Source: Rhizophagus irregularis (Eukaryota > Glomeromycota > Glomeromycetes > Glomerales > Glomeraceae). Taken from it: 64,000 nt of DNA. This document shows, in pieces, positions 11,852 to 23,870 of the stretch. The stretch covers positions 3,038,001-3,102,000 of the forward strand of contig NC_089435.1 in the NCBI RefSeq assembly GCF_026210795.1, given 5' to 3'. The position numbers were made by a program, and so were the translations under genes. The notes under the pieces were generated by a model. The model searched no databases, was not told the DNA's origin, and was given only the letters and a program-made list of their open reading frames with translations. How positions within the stretch are numbered: the stretch's first letter is position 1; the number at the start of each line of letters is the position of its first letter.

Positions 11852-11856
11852 TAAGA
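11852..11856. repeat. Left 5-bp target-site duplication TAAGA
   Basis: TAAGA directly precedes the left terminal repeat (first bases AGTAGTATG) and is matched by TAAGA at 23866-23870 directly after the right terminal repeat (last bases CATACTACT). Retroviral-type integrases leave 4-6 bp duplications, and Maverick/Polinton elements are reported with 5-6 bp. Confidence 0.85.
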
Positions 11857-12209
11857 AGTAGTATGAAAACCCCAATTCTGGCTCACCCCCACCATATAAT
11901 CTAAAATACTACCACTTTATATAATCTAGTTACCACCATCATATAATTTTAATTACCACCATATAATCCACCTACCACTTTTCATATAATCTAGTTACCA
12001 TCATATAGTTTTATTACCACCATACAATTCTATTACCACCACACAATCTGAAAAAATTAACCGAACAAGAAATAGGATTTCAAAGCCAACGGAGCCAAAA
12101 AAGGTAAGGAATATTAACCCATCCAGGAAACCAGCCATGGAGTCAATAGAGCGGAATAGCAAGGCAAGCAATTTCCCTTATACCGAGAAAAAATGTAATT
12201 GAATAAAAG
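11857..12209 (+). repeat. Left terminal inverted repeat (353 bp)
   Basis: Begins AGTAGTATGAAAACCCC and matches the reverse complement of 23428-23865. The outer ~200 bp contains short direct repeats of TACCACCATATAATC-like words. The inner ~150 bp is unique and almost identical in both copies. It ends with the AATGTAATTGAATAAAAG motif that sits ahead of several genes. Confidence 0.93.
12186..12209 (+). promoter_or_regulatory. Element promoter-like motif, copy 1
   Basis: The core AATGTAATTGAATAAAAG preceded by AGAAAA lies 39 bp before the ATG of the first F-box gene. The same 24 bp recurs at 12858-12881 and, inverted, at 23428-23451, with a two-mismatch variant inverted at 21845-21868. Each time it is 20-40 bp upstream of a start codon on the matching strand. 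A role as core promoter is inferred. Confidence 0.65.
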
Positions 12210-12248
12210 GTAGGTACCAAGTAACTATACAGATAAATAGTACATAAC

Positions 12249-12782
12249 ATGGTATATACCGCAGAAAAGTTAGCAACAATCTTTGGCTGCACAGTCTCTG
12301 ATCTTATGGCTATCAATAGAGAGATTCTAAAAAGCCACCAAACCCCGTACGCAGTATCAGTAATCCCCGAACTTGTGGGCCATATCCTGGAATACATTCC
12401 AAGTAGAAATTTCGGGACACATCTTCTAGAAGTCAGCCCAATCTGGAGAGCCGAAGCTGAACGAATACTCTGGAAGCGGCATAAAGAAGCCGAGGAGGCA
12501 TACGACAAAGCAGTAGAAAAGAAGGAAAAAGCAAATGATGCTCTTGGTCGATCAGAGGAGGAGGGTAATAGAAATCGTGACCTCCGTGAACTTGAATGGG
12601 AGGCATATCAAAAGGCTTGTAAAGAGAGAACAAATGCTGCAGTAGAGCATATTATGGTAAAAGAAGCTATTTGCCGTTGTAGCTTACAACTATAAGTTAC
12701 TTAAGGATAGAGTATACATCAGGACGAGGATGTGCTCAGTGACTCGGAGGACAATCCCGATGACTCAGATGGTGAGGAATAG
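12249..12782 (+). CDS. F-box-like protein of the transposon, one probable intron
   Basis: Unspliced, the frame runs to 12695 (148 residues). A 66-nt intron at 12657-12722 (GTAAAA donor, CAG acceptor) keeps the frame and joins it to an acidic tail (DEDVLSDSEDNPDDSDGEE) ending at 12782, which is otherwise an unexplained open stretch. Residues 39-78 (PELVGHILEYIPSR..., then LLEVSPIWRAEAERILW) resemble an F-box, the Skp1-binding part of SCF ubiquitin ligases. Residues 78-135 are a charged coiled coil. It is transcribed from just inside the left terminal repeat. No substrate-binding domain is seen. The F-box call is by pattern only, and the intron is inferred. Confidence 0.55.
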
Positions 12783-12857
12783 TTTAGGAAGACAGTACTA
12801 ATCTGTCTCCCTCTTTTTTTACCCTCATAGGGTAGGCGAACAATTAATTTTATTTTC

Positions 12858-12881
12858 AGAAAAAATGTAATTGAATAAAAG
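12858..12881 (+). promoter_or_regulatory. Element promoter-like motif, copy 2, before the polymerase
   Basis: An exact internal copy of the 24-bp terminal-repeat motif, 22 bp before the polymerase ATG at 12904 and followed by TATAAAAA. Sequence on either side is not terminal-repeat-like, so the motif itself has been conserved or copied. Confidence 0.7.
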
Positions 12882-12903
12882 AGGAGTATAAAAAGTTTAC
12901 AAG

Positions 12904-15900
12904 ATGTCAACACATCAAGCAAGAAGTGCCCAACACAGACAAGTCACCCGATCAGTTCTAGCTGAACTCAAGCAGGTACCTGTCAAGTCCATCCCATATC
13001 CCCGCTCAAATGCAAAATTGCAGGAATATGAGGATGAGATCCGCCAAATCCATGAAGCACAAGCGGCGGTAACCAATGAAGAGATAACCCGCATGATGCA
13101 AATTGATCCAGACCCACATTATGAGGTAGTCTTTGAACGTCGTGATCAGGTACGTATAGGAAAGGAGTTAACAGACTCAAACTTTACGGCTGATATTGCT
13201 ATAGGAACACCTGGAGAGCATGACTATGCTTCATTTCTTACAGCACACAGTCAAACAATCCAGAATATTCTTCAGGATGAAAGAAATCGATTGGGATCAA
13301 TAAAAGTAAGAATTGGAATATTTGCCACAATAAGACGTTTAGATTCTTACCTTGAGGGATTATTCGGAGATGGTAACTTTAGTGAAGATGATGGAGTAGA
13401 GTATATCTACAGATATAACATACCATTTAAAACTCGCAATATGCCAATCCTACCATCAACAGATATTAATGGTACATTTAACTTTGCATTAGCAAGAATC
13501 ATGCAGAAAGTAGAAGACTATGTAAATTACGGATCAGGTTGGGAATTCTATCGTGTAGAAAAAATATTTATAGAAATCTCGCAATTCCAACCACCCACAG
13601 GAGCAGGACATATACCACTCCCAAAAGATCTTGCCACGAAAAAGGGAGTAGTAAATCCAGCTAATGATGATGACAAATGCTTCCAGTGGGCAATCCTAGC
13701 AGCATTACATCCAGTAGAAAAGAACGCAGAAAGAATTTCCAAGTATAAGGAGTATGTAAATGAGTTAAACTTTGAAGGTATCGAATTTCCAGTACAAGCT
13801 GATGAGGTAATTCTAAGAAGATTTGAGCGACAGAATCCAACTATTGCCCTCTGCATCTGTGAATGGCGTGACCACCGCCTATGCCCAATATATGTTACTG
13901 ATAGGGATGATGCAGAGGGCCGTAAAATAATAGATTTAGTACTTATCAGTAACGGGGAAAAGCAGCACTATTGCTGGATTAAGAATATGAGCCGTTTAGT
14001 AAATAAACGTACAAAAGATGGACATGCAACATTTGTCTGCCGATGGTGTATCTCCCACTTCACACATCAACAAGAAATCCATGACAAACATGTAGCAATA
14101 TGTCGAGGATTAAAGAAAACCCCACAAGCAGACCGAATGCCATCAGTAAAGAAAGGAAATGATATATATGAATTCAAGAACTGGAAACGCCGCATGCAAG
14201 TCCCATATTACTTTGTTGCAGACTTTGAAGCCCTAGTAATGGACATACCACCCACAGATGAAGACAAAGATAAGAAAACCAAGAAAGTACAAGAGCAAAT
14301 CCCCTGCTCATACTCGTATATTAAGGTAAGATATGATGGTGTAAGTGAATCACAGAAGATATTTACAGGAGAAAATGCAGCACAAAAATTTGTAATCGAA
14401 ATGCTAAATGAGGCTAAAGCAATCCGTAATGAATTCAGAAACCCAATGGAAATGATGCCGTTAACAACCCAAGAGCAAGCAAGTTATGATAATGCAATAA
14501 ACTGCTGGATATGTCGTAACCCCTTAGATGGAAATAAAGTAAGAGACCACTGCCATATTACAGGAAGGTATCGAGGTGCAGCACATAGAGGATGTAATCT
14601 TGACTTATCCATAAAACCTCGTGAAATGCATATCCCAGTAATCTTTCACAATTTATCAGGATATGATGGACACATAATTATGCAAGGAATTGGTGCAATG
14701 GAATGTGAGGATGATATTGATCCTATCCCTTATAACATGGAAAAGTATATGGCATTCAAGTTAGGTTCCCTCCGATTTATAGACAGCTTACAATTCATGA
14801 AATCAAGTCTCGACAAATTAGCATCCAATCTAGGTGCAGAAAAATGTAGAGCACAAGAATGTAGTAATCCACAACACTTATGGCGAATTGATGCAGGTAG
14901 ATGCTTTGCACATCCCGAAAACTTTAAGATAACACGAAGTCAAATATCACCTGAATTACTCGAGATTTATCTTAAGAAAGGTGTCTACCCGTATGAATAC
15001 ATGGATGACTGGAAAAAGTTCGAGAAAACTAGTTTACCACCTAAAGGAGCATTTTATAGCAAACTTAATGAAACCCACATTAGTGATAAAGAATATGAAT
15101 ATGCACAGTATGTATGGGAAAAAGCAGGATGTAAAACAATGCAAGATTATCATGACATTTATCTCAAAACTGACGTCCTCCTACTAGCCGATATATTTCA
15201 GAATTTCCGAGAAATGGCCTTGAAAAAATATGGGTTAGATCCTCTCTGGTATTATTCAACACCAGGCTTCGCATGGGATGCACTATTCTTAATGACAGGG
15301 CAAAGATTGGATCTTATAACTGACCAGGACATGTACATGATGGTAGAACAAGGATTACGTGGTGGAATCTCTATGGTAAGTAAACGATATGCTCGTGCAA
15401 ATAATCCAGGTATGGGAGAAGGTAAATGGACCGCAGATAAGCCCAAGTCATCTATTCTATACTTAGACGCAAATAACCTATATGGATGGGCCATGTTGCA
15501 ATACTTACCTACAGGTAACTTCCACTGGATAAAGGAGGAAAACGAGTTATCTAACATTCAAAGGCAAATAGAAAGTAATGAAATACCAGACAATTCTTCT
15601 GAAGGATATATCCTTAAAGTTAAACTGGAGTACCCTCAAGTCCTCCATTCACAACACACAGATTACCCCCTTGCACCAGAACGAATGAAGGTTAAGAAGG
15701 AATGGCTTAGTAAAAAGCAGCAGGAAATAATAGCACGCTCAGGACAACGATACACACCCACAGATAAGCTCATCCCTAACCTATTTGATAAGGATGAATA
15801 TGTAGTTCATTATAGAAATCTCCAGTATTATGTTAGCCAGGGCTTAGTAATCAAGAAGGTCTATGAAGCTATAAAATTCGAGCAGGCTCCATGGATGAAA

Positions 15901-16801
15901 CCATATATAGAATTTAACACCGCCGAACGTGCTAAGGCTAAGAATGATTTTGAGAAGGACTTCTATAAACTCATGAATAATAGTGTATTTGGTAAAACTA
16001 TGGAAAATCTCAGGAAACGTGTACGTGTCTCAGTAGTACAACCCCAAACCCATCCCAAGAAATATAAAAAGCTTACCTCAGATCCTGCATTCAAGAGTCG
16101 TAAAATATTCTCAGAAAATCTTGTTGCAATCCACCGACGAAAAGTGGAGGTAATGCTTAACCGTCCAACATATGTGGGTATGAGTGTGCTTGACCTCTCG
16201 AAGCTCTGTATGTATCAATTCTACTATGATACTCTTAAAGTACGATATGGTGAAAAAAATCCAGTTATGTTATACAGACACAGACTCACTTCTTGTACAA
16301 ATCCAAACTGAGGATATCAATGCAGACCTCATAGATATGGCAGACCAATTTGACTTCAGTGATTATCCTAAAGATCATCCTGTACGAAAAGCATTAGGTG
16401 ATAAGACTGACATAAATATGAAAATCCCAGGGAAATTTAAGGATGAATGTAATGGAGCAGTTATAGCAGAATTTATTGGCCTCCGTCCCAAAATGTACTC
16501 CATTCTCAAGGTAGGGGATGAGACCACCAATCCAAAACATGGTATCCGTAAAGCTAAAGGTGTCCCCTCAAAGGTAGTTAAAAAAGAGTTCCACCATGAG
16601 CGGTATAATAAGGCACTCTTTGATCCTAAACATAATGATACAGTCACCTTTAGAGCAATCCGATCTGATAGACATGCCATAAATGTTATAGAAATGTCGA
16701 AGGTGGGGTTATCCCCTATGGATGATAAAAAATGGATTGCACAAGATAATATCACAATGTATGCACATGGAGATTATAGGATACCACAACTTGAAAATTA
16801 A
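12904..16801 (+). CDS. polB: Protein-primed family B DNA polymerase (PolB), one frame break
   Basis: DNA polymerase of the Polinton/viral-organellar type (DNA_pol_B_2), expected to copy the element. In order it has a conserved KCFQW block (Cys259), a CxxC/HxxxxH finger (Cys379, Cys382), Exo I (DFE, Asp440/Glu442), an endonuclease-VII-like Zn site (Cys534, Cys537, HCH 549-551), Exo II (Asn583, YD 587-588), Exo III (Tyr753, Asp757), motif A (DANNLYG, Asp855) and motif B (Lys1022, NNS 1025-1027). Motif C (YTDTDS) is at 16271-16288 but in the next frame. The first frame ends at 16311 and the second runs to 16801. The switch maps to an A7 run at 16253-16259, where one base too many is present. The residues on both sides are family-conserved, so an intron is unlikely. 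Either an assembly error, a disabling indel, or slippage. Confidence 0.92.
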
Positions 16802-17868
16802 TATAATATATGAGTAGGAGGCAGCATAGTATCAGATGGCACAACTAATAATTCTTCTCGAGTAAATATTTTTTTAGGTCCATCAGATAACCTATATATA
16901 ACCGGCTGCCCATCAACAACTGTGGAAGATTCAATTGTATAAACTTTAGTAGACCATATTGGATCAGTTGCACGTCTCCTACCTTGGTAATCTGAGTTAT
17001 CAAGTAAGTATCTCACAAGAGAACCAGCTGGTAAACGTATTTCTTCTGCACCTACAGGTCTATCCTTCCGAATTTTTGAAGGTAGTGCATACACTTGATC
17101 TTTCTGGATTGCCTCAACTGGAGACATACCTAGCAGACGAGTATTAGAATTATTTAGCTCATTCACAATATCAGAAAGGTTCTTAACCCAGGCAGTATTC
17201 ACATCTTCTGTAAGGAGTTCCTTTGCATCCTGTATTTTGAAAAGTCTCTCTGCTAAAGTTCGATTATACCGTTCAACAATAGCCTGACTCTTATGAGTAG
17301 TACCCACCCGAATACGCACACCTTTTTCATCCATTAATCGGATAACTTCATCCTTAAATTCTGATCCCCCATCTACTTGTAAAACTCTTGGCCAAATAAG
17401 CGGGCAGTCTGCTTTACCATAGATCTTTTTAAATGCCTTAGCAACACGTGCAGAGCTGCGATCTTCTAAAGGTACTGAAGCTTTATATCGGCTAGCAACA
17501 TCTACAATATTCAGACAGTATTTATACAGCTTTCTATCTACAGTATCATAGGGCATATATAAGATATCTGCTTGATGATACATATTTGGTCGAGTAATCT
17601 TATTAAAAGAAACCTGTGGAACATACTTGGGTATAGGTGAGTGTATTTGCCATATAGCCTGTTTATGCAACCACTCTGTAATATCAGATATGTTAAAATC
17701 ATGGCCTTCAGCTTGCACTTTAGCCCAAAGTTTTTCAGGAGTACGATAATATCCACATGGATGGTAATAGATTTGTTGAAGGATATAATTTTGTTCGATT
17801 TGTTTATTAAATGTAGGGTCTATAAAAATCTGTGGAACTGGCAATGGAAGATACATCGTTAAAGACAC
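16798..17868 (-). CDS. int: Retroviral-type DDE integrase (Polinton c-integrase)
   Basis: 356 residues. The catalytic triad can be read as Asp101 (HQADILYMP), Asp166 (LQVDGGSEF) and Glu199 (SQAIVERYNRTL), the last two separated by 32 residues. An N-terminal helical region (HPCGYYRTPEKLW) precedes the core. The C-terminal region (GSLVRYLLDN to FTREELLVVP) looks like an SH3/chromo-like DNA-binding tail. It would cut and join the element ends and make the 5-bp duplication. It converges on the polymerase gene: the palindromic TTAA at 16798-16801 supplies both stop codons. Its start overlaps the Gag start by 37 bp on the other strand. A later Met at residue 5 is an alternative start. The frame is intact. 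Confidence 0.93.
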   Translation of the reverse strand: MSLTMYLPLPVPQIFIDPTFNKQIEQNYILQQIYYHPCGYYRTPEKLWAKVQAEGHDFNISDITEWLHKQAIWQIHSPIPKYVPQVSFNKITRPNMYHQADILYMPYDTVDRKLYKYCLNIVDVASRYKASVPLEDRSSARVAKAFKKIYGKADCPLIWPRVLQVDGGSEFKDEVIRLMDEKGVRIRVGTTHKSQAIVERYNRTLAERLFKIQDAKELLTEDVNTAWVKNLSDIVNELNNSNTRLLGMSPVEAIQKDQVYALPSKIRKDRPVGAEEIRLPAGSLVRYLLDNSDYQGRRRATDPIWSTKVYTIESSTVVDGQPVIYRLSDGPKKIFTREELLVVPSDTMLPPTHILY

Positions 17869-20180
17869 AGATTACAAAGCTTGCACATACATTGCAATCA
17901 CAAGAGCAATATATAAAATACCTGTATGGTGTAATCGAGGGTCATGAATCTGAGATAGAAGAACTTAGGCAAAAAAATGCTGAGTTGCGTGCAAAGCTTA
18001 AGAAAGCATTAGAAACGGCATCACTAAAGGAGGAAGGGCTTCAAGCATTAGAACGTCAGCTGATTGAAGTTGATACTCTAAATATTCAACTTAAAGATCG
18101 AATAAAAGAACTTGCTAATAGACAACGGAAAAACATGGCAGCAATTCCTCCTGACCCTATTACAGAAATCTTAAATAATCGGACAACTATAGCAAATAGT
18201 GTAGCTGGTATTCGTATTCACCTTGATCGTACAACTATAGCAGCACACCCTCATATAAATCATTTATTTAACACTGCAAATGATAGTCTTGATGCCATTA
18301 TCCGATATGCTAATGAGTTGCGAAATATTATAGAAGATCAAGATAATATGGAGGATAGACTTGAAGGTTTGTTAGATGATGCACATAACCGTGAAGAATA
18401 TCTTAGACATGAACTTAATAATACACGTGCTACTATACTGAGAACAAGACGTACCTATGAGGATGCATATGCAAATGAAGTGCGTCATCGCCAACATTGG
18501 GAAGTCCTTGCACAAAATACTCAGATCCAATTGGCTAACATCCAGGCTCAATATGCTAACAGTCAAATTCAACTAGCTAATGTCCAGAGAGAACGTGATG
18601 AGAGTAGAAGAAATGCTCATAGATTATTACAGCGCTATAATACTGAAACAGAACGAAGTAGAAGGCGGGCTAATGGTATCATTCAGCAAGCTCGAGCATG
18701 GAGAGGGCAATTTTTAAACTGTCGTAATCATGGTCAAAATTTGCAAAATCAGGTCAATAATTTGAATCAACAGATTCTAGCATTACAAAATAACCCTCCG
18801 GTAATACAACAACCGATAATGGCAGGATATGCACCTAAAAAATTTAGAGGAGCATCTGGTGAAGATCCAGAACTTTGGCTTCAAGAATTCAGGCAATGGT
18901 GTGAGTCTGCTGGACTTGATCCTGCTGCTAATGCTAGAACTCGTGTTAGGATTCATGGGGTCTTTGAGACTTTACTTGAAGATGATGCTAGAGATTGGTA
19001 TGAAACACATATCAAAGGAAAAAATTGGGAATGTGTAAATCTTCTGGATAATACTGGTGTGGCCAATCTTGCTGCTTTTAATGCTTTGAATAATGGCGCT
19101 ATACAGGCTGTAGCGGCGAATCAATTTCGTGGAGGGGCTAATGTATTACATGGACAAGCAGCTGCAGTTAATACTATTACTGGTGCTAATTTTATACCTG
19201 ATCATACTGTATGGGATGAAGATTGGTCAATAGTCGAGGGTCGTCCTACTGATATAGCTGTTAATAATCCTAATGCTAATAATGGAGGTACAATTGTGGC
19301 TCCTGGAATACGTATTGGACAATTAATATATCGTTTTAAGCATTACTTCCCTACTATAACATCTGAAAAGTCTAAGCTTGCATTTAATGCTATTGTTCAG
19401 GGTAGTGATACTGTAAGCCGATTCTATTCTAAATTACGAAGAATGGTTAGACTTGCATATCCAACTCTTCCAGAGGTAAATCAGAATGAATTAGTACGGC
19501 AACAGTTCTTAAATGGTCTTTCCAGTGAAAATAAGTTGGATGCGCGACGTATTGGTTTAGAAAATTCAGTTGCATCTATTCTGAATAAATTGGAAGAAGT
19601 TGAGAAATACAGGACAGATATGCCACCTACTCCTATAGTTACATATCAGGGTCCAACTTTAGCGGATATTGAGAATCTTATAAATTCTAAAATTCCTATG
19701 ACTACGGCTAGATCATCTGCAGTACCAGTACCATCTTCTAGTCCATTTTCAAGTCCTCAAAATGATACATCATTTCAGAGATTACTTGCTTTAGCATATA
19801 AATTAGGTCTTCCAAGAGATATCGATATAAGTAAAGTAACCCTTAGTGATCTTGAAATATTTATTGATACAGAACTTAATAAAAATTTACCATCTGACCA
19901 TATTTACCGTGGTAATCAGGTATTTGGTATAAGTTCAGGTACACGCAAACCAAAGAAATCAAAGAAATGCTCAAGTTGTGGAAAATCTGGTCATACTAAG
20001 AGTTCCTGTCCAAAATCTAAGAAGGGAAAGAGGAAAACAAATTATGCACATGACTCCTCTGATTCCTCTAACTCTTCTGATGCCTCTGACTCCTCTGACT
20101 CCTTTGATAGTGATTCAGACTCTGGACATGCCTGCTATGGATTAAAAAAAAAAGCCTACAGAAAGGAAACGTGTAGATAA
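17832..20180 (+). CDS. gag: Retrotransposon-like Gag protein with CCHC zinc knuckle
   Basis: 782 residues. Residues 1-110 and about 150-325 are long coiled coils rich in Glu, Arg and Gln. About 330-610 resembles the Ty3/Pao-type retrotransposon Gag capsid region (FRGASGEDPELWLQEF, then ARDWYETHI, then VSRFYSKLRRM and QFLNGLS). At Cys713, Cys716, His721 and Cys726 is a CX2CX4HX4C zinc knuckle within a Lys-rich stretch, as in nucleocapsid. A Ser/Asp-rich tail follows and the frame ends at 20180. Retroviral Gag assembles capsids and binds nucleic acid through the knuckle; the same is inferred here. It starts divergently with the integrase, and TATAAAAA lies just before the ATG. The next frame carries the protease. 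Confidence 0.85.
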   Translation: MELAMEDTSLKTQITKLAHTLQSQEQYIKYLYGVIEGHESEIEELRQKNAELRAKLKKALETASLKEEGLQALERQLIEVDTLNIQLKDRIKELANRQRKNMAAIPPDPITEILNNRTTIANSVAGIRIHLDRTTIAAHPHINHLFNTANDSLDAIIRYANELRNIIEDQDNMEDRLEGLLDDAHNREEYLRHELNNTRATILRTRRTYEDAYANEVRHRQHWEVLAQNTQIQLANIQAQYANSQIQLANVQRERDESRRNAHRLLQRYNTETERSRRRANGIIQQARAWRGQFLNCRNHGQNLQNQVNNLNQQILALQNNPPVIQQPIMAGYAPKKFRGASGEDPELWLQEFRQWCESAGLDPAANARTRVRIHGVFETLLEDDARDWYETHIKGKNWECVNLLDNTGVANLAAFNALNNGAIQAVAANQFRGGANVLHGQAAAVNTITGANFIPDHTVWDEDWSIVEGRPTDIAVNNPNANNGGTIVAPGIRIGQLIYRFKHYFPTITSEKSKLAFNAIVQGSDTVSRFYSKLRRMVRLAYPTLPEVNQNELVRQQFLNGLSSENKLDARRIGLENSVASILNKLEEVEKYRTDMPPTPIVTYQGPTLADIENLINSKIPMTTARSSAVPVPSSSPFSSPQNDTSFQRLLALAYKLGLPRDIDISKVTLSDLEIFIDTELNKNLPSDHIYRGNQVFGISSGTRKPKKSKKCSSCGKSGHTKSSCPKSKKGKRKTNYAHDSSDSSNSSDASDSSDSFDSDSDSGHACYGLKKKAYRKETCR

Positions 20181-21054
20181 AAAGCCTACTGATAAGAAAA
20201 AATCACAACTTGAAAGGCAGCGTATTATCTTTGAGGTTTTTATACAACTCTTAAAGCTTCTGGTTCAATCTTTCGTTAATGCTGTACCAAAAGAGACTGT
20301 TATATCTGCTTACAATGCTCTGAATGCTGAATTCATTAATTATAAAGAACCAGTACTCAGTCAGCTTAAAGGAGAACCCTCGATAAAAACACGTGAAAAA
20401 GTTTGGGATAATGTTAAGGACCTTTTCACATCTATCCTTCATCCTATGATTTCGGTTGTAACTAATAGTATGGCTGCAAATTTAATCCGTAAAAATGATG
20501 ATGTTATATGTAATAATGACTTATGGTCTTCTATAGCAGGTATTGGAATTGTTAATCGCAAGTCTGCTAGTGATGTAGTCACTATTAAGACCAAAGTAGT
20601 CGCACCTGAGAGTGAAAAATCTTTAGTTATTCCTACGACAATTTTCGATACTGGTTCTGATAGTTCTCTGATATCTAACAATATTGTAAAGCGCCTAAAT
20701 CTTGACGTTGATAGAAGTAATGCTCCTGACCTTAGTGGTGTTGCAACAAAATCTGATACTATTGGGACAGTATATGGTCTTGGTATTCTTGTATATGATG
20801 GGGAGAACTCTAAAAAAATTGAAGATGACTTCATGGTTGTTAAGAGTGATAAGGACTTTTTATTGCTAGGTGTACCTTGGATTGATCGTGCTAATGTCAT
20901 TCTAGATTTCCAAAATCGGCAACTGACCATTCCTCTATCATCACGTAAAAAAATTACCATTCCAATTTCTCTACATAAACGGAAAACTAACGTGATTTCC
21001 TTGCAGATGGATACTATCGACTTAAAAAAAATTCACACTCTCGAGGAAGATTAA
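20146..21054 (+). CDS. pro: Retropepsin-type aspartic protease, fused in trans-frame to Gag
   Basis: The +1 frame is open from 20146, within the A10 run, to 21054; the first ATG is only at 20446. It begins with a basic stretch (KKPTERKRVDKK) and a helical region. The active site FDTGSDSSLI is at about 20644, and the flap-distal LLLGVPWI at about 20861 matches the second retropepsin signature. The lack of an early ATG argues for expression as a Gag-Pro fusion, as in retroelements. The join could be a +1 shift or slippage at A10 (20144-20153), a 52-nt intron at 20110-20161 (weak GTGATT donor), or repair of an assembly error. It would mature Gag. It is distinct from the Ulp1-like cysteine protease of ordinary Polintons. 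Confidence 0.8.
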   Translation, partial: KKKPTERKRVDKKPTDKKKSQLERQRIIFEVFIQLLKLLVQSFVNAVPKETVISAYNALNAEFINYKEPVLSQLKGEPSIKTREKVWDNVKDLFTSILHPMISVVTNSMAANLIRKNDDVICNNDLWSSIAGIGIVNRKSASDVVTIKTKVVAPESEKSLVIPTTIFDTGSDSSLISNNIVKRLNLDVDRSNAPDLSGVATKSDTIGTVYGLGILVYDGENSKKIEDDFMVVKSDKDFLLLGVPWIDRANVILDFQNRQLTIPLSSRKKITIPISLHKRKTNVISLQMDTIDLKKIHTLEED

Positions 21055-21173
21055 CCTGTCATCTATGTGGAGCAAGTTTTGACTTTCCCTCTAAGTTAAA
21101 GCGTCATCTTGCTAGGAAAAATCCATGTGTTTCCCAAACTTCTGCGGCAATGATGGGCAGTGGCGGGCAGTGA
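20945..21173 (+). CDS. Candidate spliced C2H2-finger exon of the Gag-Pro gene
   Basis: A 62-nt intron at 20945-21006 (donor GTAAAA, branch-like CTAAC, acceptor TTGCAG) would leave the protease frame after PLSS and enter a frame reading GYYRLKKNSHSRGRLTC and then CHLCGASFDFPSKLKRHL. This is a C2H2-type finger with a trailing NPC, ending in a stop at about 21173. Phase is conserved exactly. The GTAAAA donor is the same as in the candidate intron at 12657. Without splicing the protease ends at 21054. The exon is 21007-21173. A finger after protease would add DNA or RNA binding to the fusion. Confidence 0.5.
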
Positions 21174-21279
21174 CAGGGCAGTGCCCAAATTTTTTCAGCA
21201 GTGACGGGCAGTAACAGGGTAGTGCCCAAATTTTTTCGGCAGTGACGGGCAGTAACAGAGCAGTGCCCAAATTTTTTGG
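21157..21279. repeat. 41-bp tandem repeat with GGGCAGT words, three copies
   Basis: Three units beginning near 21157, 21198 and 21239 share GCAGTGACGGGCAGTAACAG followed by GGCAGTGCCCAAATTTTTT. They are GC-rich in an AT-rich genome, and each unit has the inner palindrome GGGCA..TGCCC. They lie between the Gag-Pro stop and the convergent F-box gene, a plausible termination or 3' end region. Confidence 0.8.
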
Positions 21280-21301
21280 CGGTGATTAGCCTTTACAAAT
21301 A

Positions 21302-21814
21302 TTACATTTGCCATGTTACTCTGATTTCTAGGTCTTTACGGGTTTCTATGAGTTTTTCAATGGCATTTCTATTTTTAAAATATCGACTACATCTGATATC
21401 TAGCTTTTGAAGGTTTGGTAATATATGCAGGATTTCACTTAGCAAATCTCTAACGTCACCTTTTCCACCATAGTATTGATAATCTATTATGCTAAGTTCC
21501 TGAATATTGGGACAAGCTTGTAGCATTTTTACAATACAAATGGGCCATAATTTTACCCCATCCATATTAAGCTTTCTGATATATTTTCCACATACTGTTC
21601 CTGGTTTTGTAAGATGTTTATACATTTGGAACTCCTTCACATTATAGCGGTTATAAAGGTCTACTTCACCCCATAGGAGAGAGTTTGCTACTACAGCCCA
21701 TTTTCGACACACTAATGCATAATTGCAAAGATAATGCCAACGGGAGTAAGTACCTTCATATGAAGTTTTGAATATCTTTTCTAAAAGTTCAAAAGATAAG
21801 CTATTGTTTGTCAT
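21302..21814 (-). CDS. F-box protein with leucine-rich region
   Basis: 170 residues. Residues 5-50 fit an F-box (SFELLEKIFKT, then NYALVCRKWAVVANSLLW), followed by LRR-like strands (YIRKLNMDGVKLW, NIQELSIIDYQYY, NLQKLDIRCSRYF). This is the layout of FBXL-type substrate receptors of SCF ubiquitin ligases, which are strongly expanded in Glomeromycota, so it may have been captured from the host. A variant of the element promoter motif lies 30 bp upstream on the matching strand. It diverges from the next gene. The frame is intact. Confidence 0.75.
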   Translation of the reverse strand: MTNNSLSFELLEKIFKTSYEGTYSRWHYLCNYALVCRKWAVVANSLLWGEVDLYNRYNVKEFQMYKHLTKPGTVCGKYIRKLNMDGVKLWPICIVKMLQACPNIQELSIIDYQYYGGKGDVRDLLSEILHILPNLQKLDIRCSRYFKNRNAIEKLIETRKDLEIRVTWQM

Positions 21815-21844
21815 GGTATCTCATATGAGATATTGATGGTGAAG

Positions 21845-21868
21845 TTTTATTTAATTAGATTTTTTCTT
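21845..21868 (-). promoter_or_regulatory. Element promoter-like motif, copy 3 (two mismatches)
   Basis: On the minus strand, about 22 of 24 positions follow the terminal-repeat motif, with CTAATTAAATAAAA in place of GTAATTGAATAAAA. It sits in the 104-bp gap between the F-box/LRR gene (-) and the next gene (+), oriented towards the F-box gene. Confidence 0.55.
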
Positions 21869-21918
21869 AGGATAAAATAATTTGAACATTTCTTTTCTAT
21901 CAATAGAAAAAACCAAAC

Positions 21919-22710
21919 ATGCTTACTTTTAGTGAACTTACTCCATCTCTTACTGTTACTGAATTTAAGATCAATGTTGAAGGGCTTGATTACACCGTGC
22001 TTGGTCATAAGCTTGAACCTACTAAGGATGTTATTGCCATTAATAGCAACTTTATTCATAAAGCTTTTGAGGGTTATGAACAGTACTTGTCTAAACCAAA
22101 AGGTGAGAGGCGATGCAGACGAAGTACACCTGACAATCCATTAAATAGACGGCGACGTACAGGGGATGGTAGCACTTTTAATGCATGCATTGAGTTTGTT
22201 ATCATCTTAGCTGATACTGTACATACTATTCGTTATTTTCCTAAATCTGGTAGTATACAAGTTTTCGGGTCTTTTGATCCTGTTGCTATCTTCTTACGTT
22301 ACCTTTCTGAATGTTCCCTACCTGAATTTTCTTCTGTAGAACTTGTGGGTGAAAATAAGGCTCTCCTGCGCAATTATAAATTTGTGATTAATATTGGGGG
22401 TGATAAGTTTATTAATCTTTCTACCTTAGCATATGCTTTAGAATCTATAGATGGTATTCGTGAGATTCTTCCCTTTCCGATAAAGTATATTAAGAATGAT
22501 GCAGGTGATATTCATTCTAAAATTGCTATAATCTTTACTTCAAAGATTCGGGTACATATCTGGCCTAAATCTGGTAAGGTTAATATATTTGGCACTAAGA
22601 CTGAATTGGATGCTGATATGGTTTATAAGTTCTTACAGAAGTTGTTTTCTAATCCGAATGATTTTGGGGATTTTATTTGTGATGCACCTATTCCAGATTG
22701 TGAGAGGTAA
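21919..22710 (+). CDS. Two-repeat protein, possible TBP-like fold
   Basis: 263 residues, intact, not identified by any signature I know well. It has an internal duplication: FKINVEGLDYTV (16-27) and later FPKSGSIQVFG (107-117) are matched by FVINIGGDKFIN (154-165) and WPKSGKVNIFG (215-225). Each half has an N-terminal beta strand pair, a helix, a strand ending in hydrophobic residues, a (F/W)PKSG-(S/K)-(I/V) hairpin and a final helix (PVAIFLRYL; DADMVYKFLQKLF). TATA-binding protein has the same two-repeat plan, with a comparable SGK.V.TGAKS hairpin before a helix. TBP homology is an inference. A basic patch (RRCRRS, RRRR) sits in the first half. Alternatives are another helix-grip fold or a minor structural protein. 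Confidence 0.45.
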   Translation: MLTFSELTPSLTVTEFKINVEGLDYTVLGHKLEPTKDVIAINSNFIHKAFEGYEQYLSKPKGERRCRRSTPDNPLNRRRRTGDGSTFNACIEFVIILADTVHTIRYFPKSGSIQVFGSFDPVAIFLRYLSECSLPEFSSVELVGENKALLRNYKFVINIGGDKFINLSTLAYALESIDGIREILPFPIKYIKNDAGDIHSKIAIIFTSKIRVHIWPKSGKVNIFGTKTELDADMVYKFLQKLFSNPNDFGDFICDAPIPDCER

Positions 22711-22731
22711 AAAAAATGGTTTCACTGAGAA

Positions 22732-23403
22732 CTAAAAACCCTCTATTTGTAAAATCCAGCAATCGCATTCCTGACTTCTTGTTGGCATAAGACATTCGTC
22801 ACATAGAGTTATAGCCAACTCATTTTTTAGTCTATCCAGCTGACTCTCGGTGGTCGGTGCAAGATTCTGATAGTATTCATTGAATTCATTCTGCTCTACT
22901 TCATCTATGTCTTCATCTGTGTCTTCGTCCATATCTTCATCTCCTTTAATATGGTAGATGCTGAATTCATTTCTATATTCATCATTAGGATTCGTGAATA
23001 TTCTTTGTATATTGTAATCTATAATGTTGAATGTTGTAGGTTTCTTTTTTGATAATATTTCTACTAAGTCTAATAATGCATATGCTAATTCTTTATCCTC
23101 TGAGAAGTTCTTAATGATATCTGAAAATCTTTCATATATTGCCATCTCATCTGGTAGAATAGAATATCTTATTCGTGATAAAAGTGATGGATGTATCCAT
23201 ATATCATCACCTTCTAACATCTCATCAAATATTTCTACTAGCTCTTCTAATCCAGATACTAACATACTTTCTTTGCTAAATTCAGAATCTAAAGCTTTTA
23301 AATATGCTATATCTAAATACCACATTATTTCCTTTACCCATTCTTCTATGTTGAGTTCAAACTGGCCTAGTATACGTCTTAGTAATGGTCTGTATTGTGA
23401 CAT
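22732..23403 (-). CDS. Acidic orphan protein of the transposon
   Basis: 223 residues, no recognised domain. Residues 1-140 are predicted helical (RRILGQFELNIEEWVKEIMW; LAYALLDLVEIL). A run of Asp/Glu at about 153-170 follows, and the C-terminus has four cysteines (CDEC, then CDCW) that could bind zinc. It is transcribed inward from the right terminal repeat, with the promoter-like motif 24 bp upstream, mirroring the F-box gene at the left end. It converges with the TBP-like gene, leaving 21 bp between stops. Function unknown. Confidence 0.6.
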   Translation of the reverse strand: MSQYRPLLRRILGQFELNIEEWVKEIMWYLDIAYLKALDSEFSKESMLVSGLEELVEIFDEMLEGDDIWIHPSLLSRIRYSILPDEMAIYERFSDIIKNFSEDKELAYALLDLVEILSKKKPTTFNIIDYNIQRIFTNPNDEYRNEFSIYHIKGDEDMDEDTDEDIDEVEQNEFNEYYQNLAPTTESQLDRLKNELAITLCDECLMPTRSQECDCWILQIEGF

Positions 23404-23427
23404 CTTGTAAGTCTTTTATATGTGAAT

Positions 23428-23451
23428 CTTTTATTCAATTACATTTTTTCT
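23428..23451 (-). promoter_or_regulatory. Element promoter-like motif, copy 4, in right terminal repeat
   Basis: The same 24 bp as in the left terminal repeat, on the minus strand, 24 bp before the start of the acidic orphan gene. Its presence at the inner edge of both terminal repeats means each end can fire a gene inward. Confidence 0.65.
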
Positions 23452-23865
23452 CGGTATAAGGGAAATTGCTTGCCTTGCTATTCCGCTCTATTGACTCCAT
23501 GGCTGGTTTCCTGGATGGGTTAATATTCCTTACCTTTTTTGGCTCCGTTGGCTTTGAAATCCTATTTCTTGTTCGGTTAATTTTTTCAGATTGTGTGGTG
23601 GTAATAGAATTGTATGGTGGTAATAAAACTATATGATGGTAACTAGATTATATGAAAAGTGGTAGGTGGATTATATGGTGGTAATTAAAATTATATGATG
23701 GTGGTAACTAGATTATATAAAGTGGTAGTTAAATTATAGTAAAAGTGGTAGGTGGATTATATGGTGGTAATTATATTATATGATGGTGGTAACTAGATTA
23801 TATAAAGTGGTAGTATTTTAGATTATATGGTGGGGGTGAGCCAGAATTGGGGTTTTCATACTACT
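23428..23865 (-). repeat. Right terminal inverted repeat (438 bp)
   Basis: Reverse complement of the left repeat, ending CATACTACT. It is about 85 bp longer than the left copy because the GGTGGTAA/ATATAAAGTGGTAG block is present once more. The unique inner part is nearly identical to the left copy, which points to recent transposition or gene conversion. Confidence 0.92.
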
Positions 23866-23870
23866 TAAGA
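23866..23870. repeat. Right 5-bp target-site duplication TAAGA
   Basis: An exact partner of 11852-11856, directly after the terminal CT of the right repeat. Confidence 0.85.

Follow-up and report, generated by a model that had tools for sequence, protein, structure and literature searches.

The locus described here raises the question of whether a DNA transposon can carry, where its relatives carry a DNA-virus capsid, the Gag protein of a retroelement. Capsid genes set the great lineages of viruses apart: as far as is known, Gag occurs in reverse-transcribing elements, and Polintons (also called Mavericks) and their viral kin use double-jelly-roll (DJR) capsids. Polintons further encode an FtsK/HerA ATPase and a Ulp1-like cysteine protease; their DNA polymerase (PolB) copies the element and their integrase (INT) inserts it, canonically with a target-site duplication (TSD) of 6 bp. 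The element in question occupies positions 11857–23865 of a 64,000 bp stretch of the arbuscular mycorrhizal (AM) fungus Rhizophagus irregularis (assembly GCF_026210795.1, contig NC_089435.1; C7:3038001-3102000 in our numbering), hereafter the window. An initial annotation, made from the window alone, proposed a hybrid lineage of Polinton-like transposons with Gag and a retropepsin (PRO) in place of the DJR capsid. Our analysis supports this proposal. That gag-pro belongs integrally to the element and is under selection there is close to certain; that the element is a Polinton-like DNA transposon in which Ty3/retrovirus-type gag-pro occupies the place of the DJR capsid, the FtsK-type ATPase and the Ulp1-like protease, packaging role included, is in our judgement more likely than not.

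The window element is complete, with a terminal inverted repeat (TIR) and a TSD on either side of the following open reading frames (ORFs; lengths in amino acids, aa):

11852–11856: left TSD, TAAGA (read directly)
11857–12209: left TIR, 353 bp, starting AGTAGTATG (repeat search; the TIR recurs at many places in the genome)
12249–12695, plus strand: ORF1, 148 aa, without family (ORF list, Pfam)
12904–16311, plus strand: first part of PolB, carrying the exonuclease and polymerase motifs that precede the break, and an endonuclease-VII-like zinc motif
16184–16801, plus strand: last part of PolB in a different frame, with YTDTDS
16798–17868, minus strand: c-integrase (rve), D/D/E with 32 residues from the second D to E; first in-frame ATG at 17856
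17832–20180, plus strand: Gag, with a helical N-terminal part, a capsid (CA) region at about residues 321–610 and a CCHC knuckle at 713; first in-frame ATG at 17844
20146–21054, plus strand: retropepsin (PRO) frame with DTGS, in one frame with Gag in some other copies
21302–21814, minus strand: F-box-like ORF, 170 aa (1.6e-4, below cut-off); the region recurs in other copies
21919–22710, plus strand: ORF7, 263 aa, without clear family (ORF list, Pfam)
22732–23403, minus strand: ORF8, 223 aa, without clear family (ORF list, Pfam)
23428–23865: right TIR, 438 bp, with one extra subrepeat, ending CATACTACT
23866–23870: right TSD, TAAGA (read directly)

The two TIR arms match at 100% in two blocks, and an extra subrepeat of ~85 bp is present, as one unit, in the right arm only. 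PolB and c-integrase do lie in one TIR-bounded unit, as first annotated; the polB of this copy is broken, its frame changing just before the YTDTDS motif. Between the integrase and the right end stand the predicted CCHC Gag and DTGS protease, and the first in-frame ATGs of int and gag overlap head-to-head. Among the nine ORFs scanned, Pfam gave no match at E≤1 to any family of reverse transcriptases (RT), capsids, packaging ATPases or Ulp1 proteases. No direct repeat resembling a long terminal repeat (LTR) was found around gag-pro, the element showing only its TIRs and short tandem repeats; this bears out the initial statement that RT and LTRs are absent. The GC content of the element is 0.34–0.40, versus 0.20–0.30 outside it (2-kb bins).

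Genome-wide counts refer to the 146.7-Mb, 32-contig assembly, which holds at least 115 matches to INT, 65 to GAG, 135 to PRO and 50 to PolB. A TIR search yielded 16 TIR-bounded copies of the window element's own family (family A), paired by eye and omitting seven partnerless ends. Fifteen of the 16 carry gag, 14 carry int and 13 carry polB; the single gag-less copy, 5.6 kb long, is also without int and polB. The accessory region on the right (F-box, ORF7, ORF8) is likewise shared, with 31 of 45 matches (window included) at 90–100% identity over essentially the full query. TSDs flank nine of ten further copies examined, at 5 bp (two copies), 6 bp (five) or 7 bp (two), and one copy has none. Together, TIRs and TSDs show the family to be mobile. 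The 5-bp duplication first noted therefore holds for the window copy but is ruled out as a family constant; among the other copies checked 6 bp is the commonest length, within a range of 5–7 bp.

The arrangement of the genes extends beyond family A. Once INT fragments had been joined into 107 INT loci, a head-to-head PRO was found 5' of INT within 13 kb at 81 of them (within 6 kb at 76), and a PRO on the strand of INT at that side never. Chance adjacency is ruled out, 1000 random rotations giving a mean of 0.86 such loci and a maximum of 5. Grouped by INT identity to the window, the head-to-head PRO is present at 36/39 loci (≥75%), 22/25 (48–52%), 15/18 (45–47%) and 8/25 (36–43%). Ten diverged loci were fetched at 20 kb each, with further stretches added. 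Among them, family B (tblastn identity to the window: INT ~50%, Gag 33%, PRO 34%, PolB 35%) is an 11.8-kb element with the gene order INT(-) GAG(+) PRO(+) PolB(-), termini AGTAGGAC, TSDs TCAGC (B1) and CCTGG (B2) and, in B1, TIRs of 912 bp that are 99.8% identical. Its polB lies on the opposite side and strand relative to that of the window element, with gag-pro and the head-to-head int/gag retained; its other ORFs are of ~135 aa or less. Read from end to end, families A and B contain no unassigned ORF of capsid size. In the family-D loci read, the gag pieces share a strand with INT, and the D5 ATPase matches Pox_A32 at 7.1e-12. At the position of the catalytic Glu, the E4 and D5 integrases (L029:6616-8292; L032:6661-7893) have another residue; the E4 integrase is also extended at its C-terminus, where it weakly matches DUF4379 (treble clef).

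These observations bear on two findings that would have told against the hybrid proposal: a separate retroelement nested in the transposon, and related copies without gag-pro but with a DJR capsid gene. The former is ruled out by gag-pro in 15 of 16 copies, the absence of LTRs, the INT–PRO linkage and gag-pro in families with other gene orders, such as B. As to the latter, no DJR gene was seen in the sequence read.

Selection was estimated as dN/dS (the ratio of nonsynonymous to synonymous change, Nei–Gojobori) between copies that are not independent of one another. For gag, seven family-A comparisons over 477–499 codons, with just 8–12 synonymous differences each, gave 0.23–0.44; three family-B comparisons gave 0.28–0.42, the long family-C comparisons 0.12, 0.15 and 0.27, and three short overlaps (42–78 codons) 0.26–0.49. 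Values for the other genes are 0.08–0.27 for INT where defined, 0.16–0.46 for PolB, 0.14–0.20 for the ATPase of the larger relatives described below, and 0.12–0.51 for PRO, with one outlier of 1.24 on five differences. These codon comparisons show purifying selection on gag.

What kind of protein does gag encode? The window Gag contains the CCHC knuckle CSSCGKSGHTKSSC at residue 713, and Pfam returns zf-CCHC (0.023) and Retrotrans_gag (0.043), both below cut-off. An AlphaFold2 model of residues 321–610, built from 17 sequences, predicts two helical lobes, with block confidence (pLDDT) mostly 55–88. Foldseek returned 446 PDB matches to this model at E≤10, and the best 50 of them are all retroviral or Ty3-derived Gag capsid proteins; the PEG10 C-terminal domain and the Arc C-lobe are among the matches, at probability 1.00 and target TM 0.63–0.72. 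Against predicted viral structures the better matches are mainly Gag. First place there, ahead of the Gag proteins, goes to a model of Chelonid alphaherpesvirus 5 ICP4c (probability 1.00, E=0.06); this DNA virus may have a domain resembling CA. Searches for sequence relatives of Gag, with 8000 candidates scored in each, gave 29 and 36 matches; the named ones come solely from Rhizophagus, Paraglomus and Diversispora, alongside unnamed proteins, and the best named matches are R. irregularis, topped by DAOM 181602 (= DAOM 197198). Comparison with PDB sequences gave weak matches only. The CA region of family B aligns poorly to that of families A and C, and the same is probably true of family E.

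The window PRO reads IFDTGSDSS and matches Asp_protease_2 at 4.3e-4, below cut-off; the family-B retropepsin matches it above cut-off (6e-7) and has weak PDB sequence matches, the best being the retropepsin-like Ddi1 at 0.038. At the active site, families A and B read DTGS, and C2 and the Paraglomus sequence P0024 read DSGA. Gag and PRO are offset in frame at a run of ten A (window 20146–20180); elsewhere gag-pro is a single frame of ~1075 aa in some copies and has a stop at ~784 aa in others; real variation, a programmed shift or an assembly error may each be the cause. Just 3' of PRO lie a C2H2-like motif in another frame (CHLCGASF...HLARKNPC, 21057–21128) and three tandem copies of a GC-richer unit of ~41 bp (21156–21277).

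The replication and insertion genes are of Polinton type. The window INT matches rve above the Pfam cut-off (E=8.1e-9), with weak integrase matches among PDB sequences (E 0.41–0.78). PF03175 has no match at E≤1 in the window PolB itself; when PolB region 420–1120 was searched, 7999 of 8000 scored candidates matched, and PF03175 is present on many of the 120 relatives listed. Those outside the fungal group are ~43–51% identical, and molluscs, snakes and a sea anemone are among the named sources. By sequence, we assign PolB to the Polinton-type PF03175 group, with protein priming putative. In a tree of 29 hand-chosen sequences, the family-A and family-B polymerases, put at 37% identity outside the tblastn comparison, group together with support 0.96, on a long branch for B; the family-B PolB starts with a C2H2 finger. 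PolB has zero matches to PDB sequences, and PHROGs pointed to endonuclease VII, a polymerase and a transposase, with weaker unrelated matches besides. Scans of viral contigs (INT, GAG, PolB, ATPase and large-element PolB, with gag and INT alignments) and a scan of genome contigs with the INT alignment confirmed no relative.

The same INT/GAG/PRO core is found in the family-C and family-E loci that we read, which belong to much larger elements. Their ends escaped inverted-repeat scans and came to light, as a shared end sequence in inverted pairs, when the left flank of C2 was used as a DNA query. Both ends were read in five pairs, on contigs C23 (424325–460610, 36.3 kb), C21, C6, C9 and C3, with termini AGCCGTTTATGA(C/T)TAAATAA and 5-bp TSDs in all five (AATCT, ATATC, GCTTT, CTCTT, AGTGT). 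Four span ~36–41 kb and the one on contig C3 ~86 kb. In all five, INT is accompanied by a head-to-head PRO and, on its own strand, by an A32-type ATPase. At the loci read, the same-strand ATPase 3' of INT shows Pox_A32 similarity in locus C3 (1.2e-6, above cut-off) and, by tblastn, in E4; among these elements a packaging ATPase is of this type and is present in the large relatives only. Across the genome, in a count that took in 54 of the 147 ATPase places, a same-strand ATPase lies within 3 kb of INT on its 3' side at 22 loci, on its 5' side at seven, and at none of 39 in family A. The large-element polymerase is a different family-B kind (PF00136 at 1.5e-42 in C5), situated on the gag side in six of six loci (C1–C5 and E4, as judged from aligned ORFs, from tblastn or from similarity of the DNA). 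Its best PDB chain, the "DNA polymerase" 8ywg_A (1206 aa, E=1.6e-264, versus 1.3e-26 for polymerase delta), is presumably the African swine fever virus enzyme. The A32-like ATPase (query L021:8126-8905, minus strand) matches at least 147 places, most in a group at 41–43% identity, many as frames of ~411 aa and not adjoining the INT loci, which suggests another high-copy element with a packaging-type ATPase. Inside the TIRs of the contig C23 element, an ORF with a Crinkler N-terminal domain (1.1e-17) lies beside a kinase-like ORF (L020:5202-7284), both possible cargo.

From these parts a working scheme can be proposed. Since PolB and INT have these roles in Polintons, and given the TIR and TSD structure, PolB would make linear DNA copies of the element, which the integrase would insert with a stagger of 5–7 bp. 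More tentatively, Gag may enclose the DNA copy in a shell or core, with the knuckle or a basic tail as its nucleic-acid contact; a retropepsin with an intact motif may mature this shell, and for the large relatives the A32-type ATPase is a possible motor driving DNA inside. We propose Gag as the shell because of its predicted CA fold, the knuckle, the linked protease, its conservation and the linked A32-type ATPase of the large relatives, and on this modelled basis a DNA-containing Gag particle or core is somewhat favoured.

Several points weigh against such a shell. The proposal is drawn from genes, with particle, protein and transcript all at the level of prediction. Every Pfam Gag match is below cut-off; the CA model is weak (mean pLDDT 56.5, predicted TM score 0.41, a 96-residue stretch under 50), its best PDB E-value is 0.019, with none below 0.001 among the 50 matches shown, and the family-B Gag gave no usable model. 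The knuckle is absent from C4, C5 and the E4 pieces, and five of the six large copies read have a changed protease motif (DPGA in C3–C5, DSRA in C1, DSCA in E4), where proteolysis may have been lost in part of the elements. The two family-D loci read gave no PRO match, and families A and B have no ATPase. The degenerate motif, the loss of the knuckle in some copies and the small elements without ATPase would suit a Gag-Pro that is integral but not a capsid, serving the element as a nucleic-acid chaperone, trafficking or anti-silencing factor. Such a role seems unlikely to us: besides the nucleic-acid-binding tail the protein keeps lobes whose predicted fold matches capsids, the long family-C comparisons of gag give dN/dS of 0.12–0.27, and in the large relatives the linked ATPase is of packaging type.

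The remaining alternatives concern what else might do the packaging, or what Gag might package. A DJR capsid could still be in use, with Gag as an addition; its gene might lie in sequence outside that read, might have escaped recognition, or might belong to a different element: ~14.4 kb of the 36.3-kb contig C23 element lies outside the sequence read, several ORFs have no family, and a search with PF04451 was uninformative because its controls gave no signal. We consider this improbable, given the end-to-end reading of families A and B and the accessible part of PMC10640383 (Zhao et al.), which reports no major capsid protein (MCP) by tBLASTn and hidden Markov models in five R. irregularis strains. 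Movement through RNA, with Gag packaging RNA and RT acting in trans, would account for a Gag, PRO and INT that amount to a retroelement set minus RT, in a genome that also contains RT-bearing Ty3 elements; but polB is under purifying selection (dN/dS 0.16–0.46), the elements have long TIRs and no LTRs, and their genes lie on both strands, so no single RNA has all of them in sense, which makes this route very improbable. Least credible of all is that gag-pro is a retroelement fragment that landed in a Polinton as a passenger. Its Gag and retropepsin are of retroelement families, and Ty3 elements are present, yet the int/gag/pro arrangement is conserved across families with differing polB positions and kinds, LTRs are absent and gag is under selection, so that this origin is already contradicted.

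Polintons without a capsid gene are already known from R. irregularis; on their having Gag we found nothing in print, no description of Gag in Polintons/Mavericks appearing in a literature search of titles and abstract starts whose scope excluded most subscription papers and Repbase. In the parts available, PMC7805220 describes Polintons of Glomus intraradices (= R. irregularis) with no detectable MCP, read as a loss favouring transposon life; PMC4028283 gives MCP genes, intact or split, in >80% of 72 Polintons, leaving some without; and PMC8647823 places Maverick elements among recent expansions, with numerous low-methylation copies. The accessible text of PMC10640383 counts 15–33 polB copies per genome, taken as a sign of widespread infection, and reports no A32, contrary to the A32 matches above the Pfam cut-off found here. 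If our reading is true, the "capsid-less" fungal Polintons, held to have lost their capsid for transposon life, gain a new interpretation, and conserved, selected gag-pro in transposons bearing a DNA polymerase would be a morphogenetic module that crosses the border between retroelements and DNA viruses.

As far as the accessible text of PMC10640383 goes, the asfarvirus-like polB loci that it reads as infection traces are probably the polB of our large elements; the loci described here place such polB beside INT, Gag and an A32-type ATPase, and may re-explain these genes in AM fungi. A broader and more tentative proposal, which we put forward as possible, is that virus-like elements of ~12 to ~40 kb form a separate lineage in AM fungi, replicating as DNA and enclosing that DNA in a Gag-type shell. 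The larger members would add an A32-type motor and a polymerase of DNA-virus type, and the scattered "asfarvirus" polB genes would be theirs, rather than from past giant-virus infections. With Polintons/Mavericks the elements share a PF03175-type PolB, an rve c-integrase, long TIRs and TSDs of 5–7 bp; they differ in that families A and B have Gag and retropepsin, with no DJR MCP, penton, FtsK ATPase or Ulp1-like protease found. With Ty3/gypsy elements (Metaviridae) they share the CCHC knuckle, the aspartic protease, an rve-type integrase and perhaps the Gag CA fold that the model suggests, whereas the window element has its own DNA polymerase and TIRs and is without RT or LTR. The int of Ty3/gypsy stands at the end of pol, and here it is divergent from gag; the nearest PRO read outside these elements is followed by RT, as in an ordinary Ty3 Pol. 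The domesticated Gag proteins Arc, PEG10 and PNMA2 resemble the window Gag in predicted CA fold, but they are host genes outside DNA transposons.

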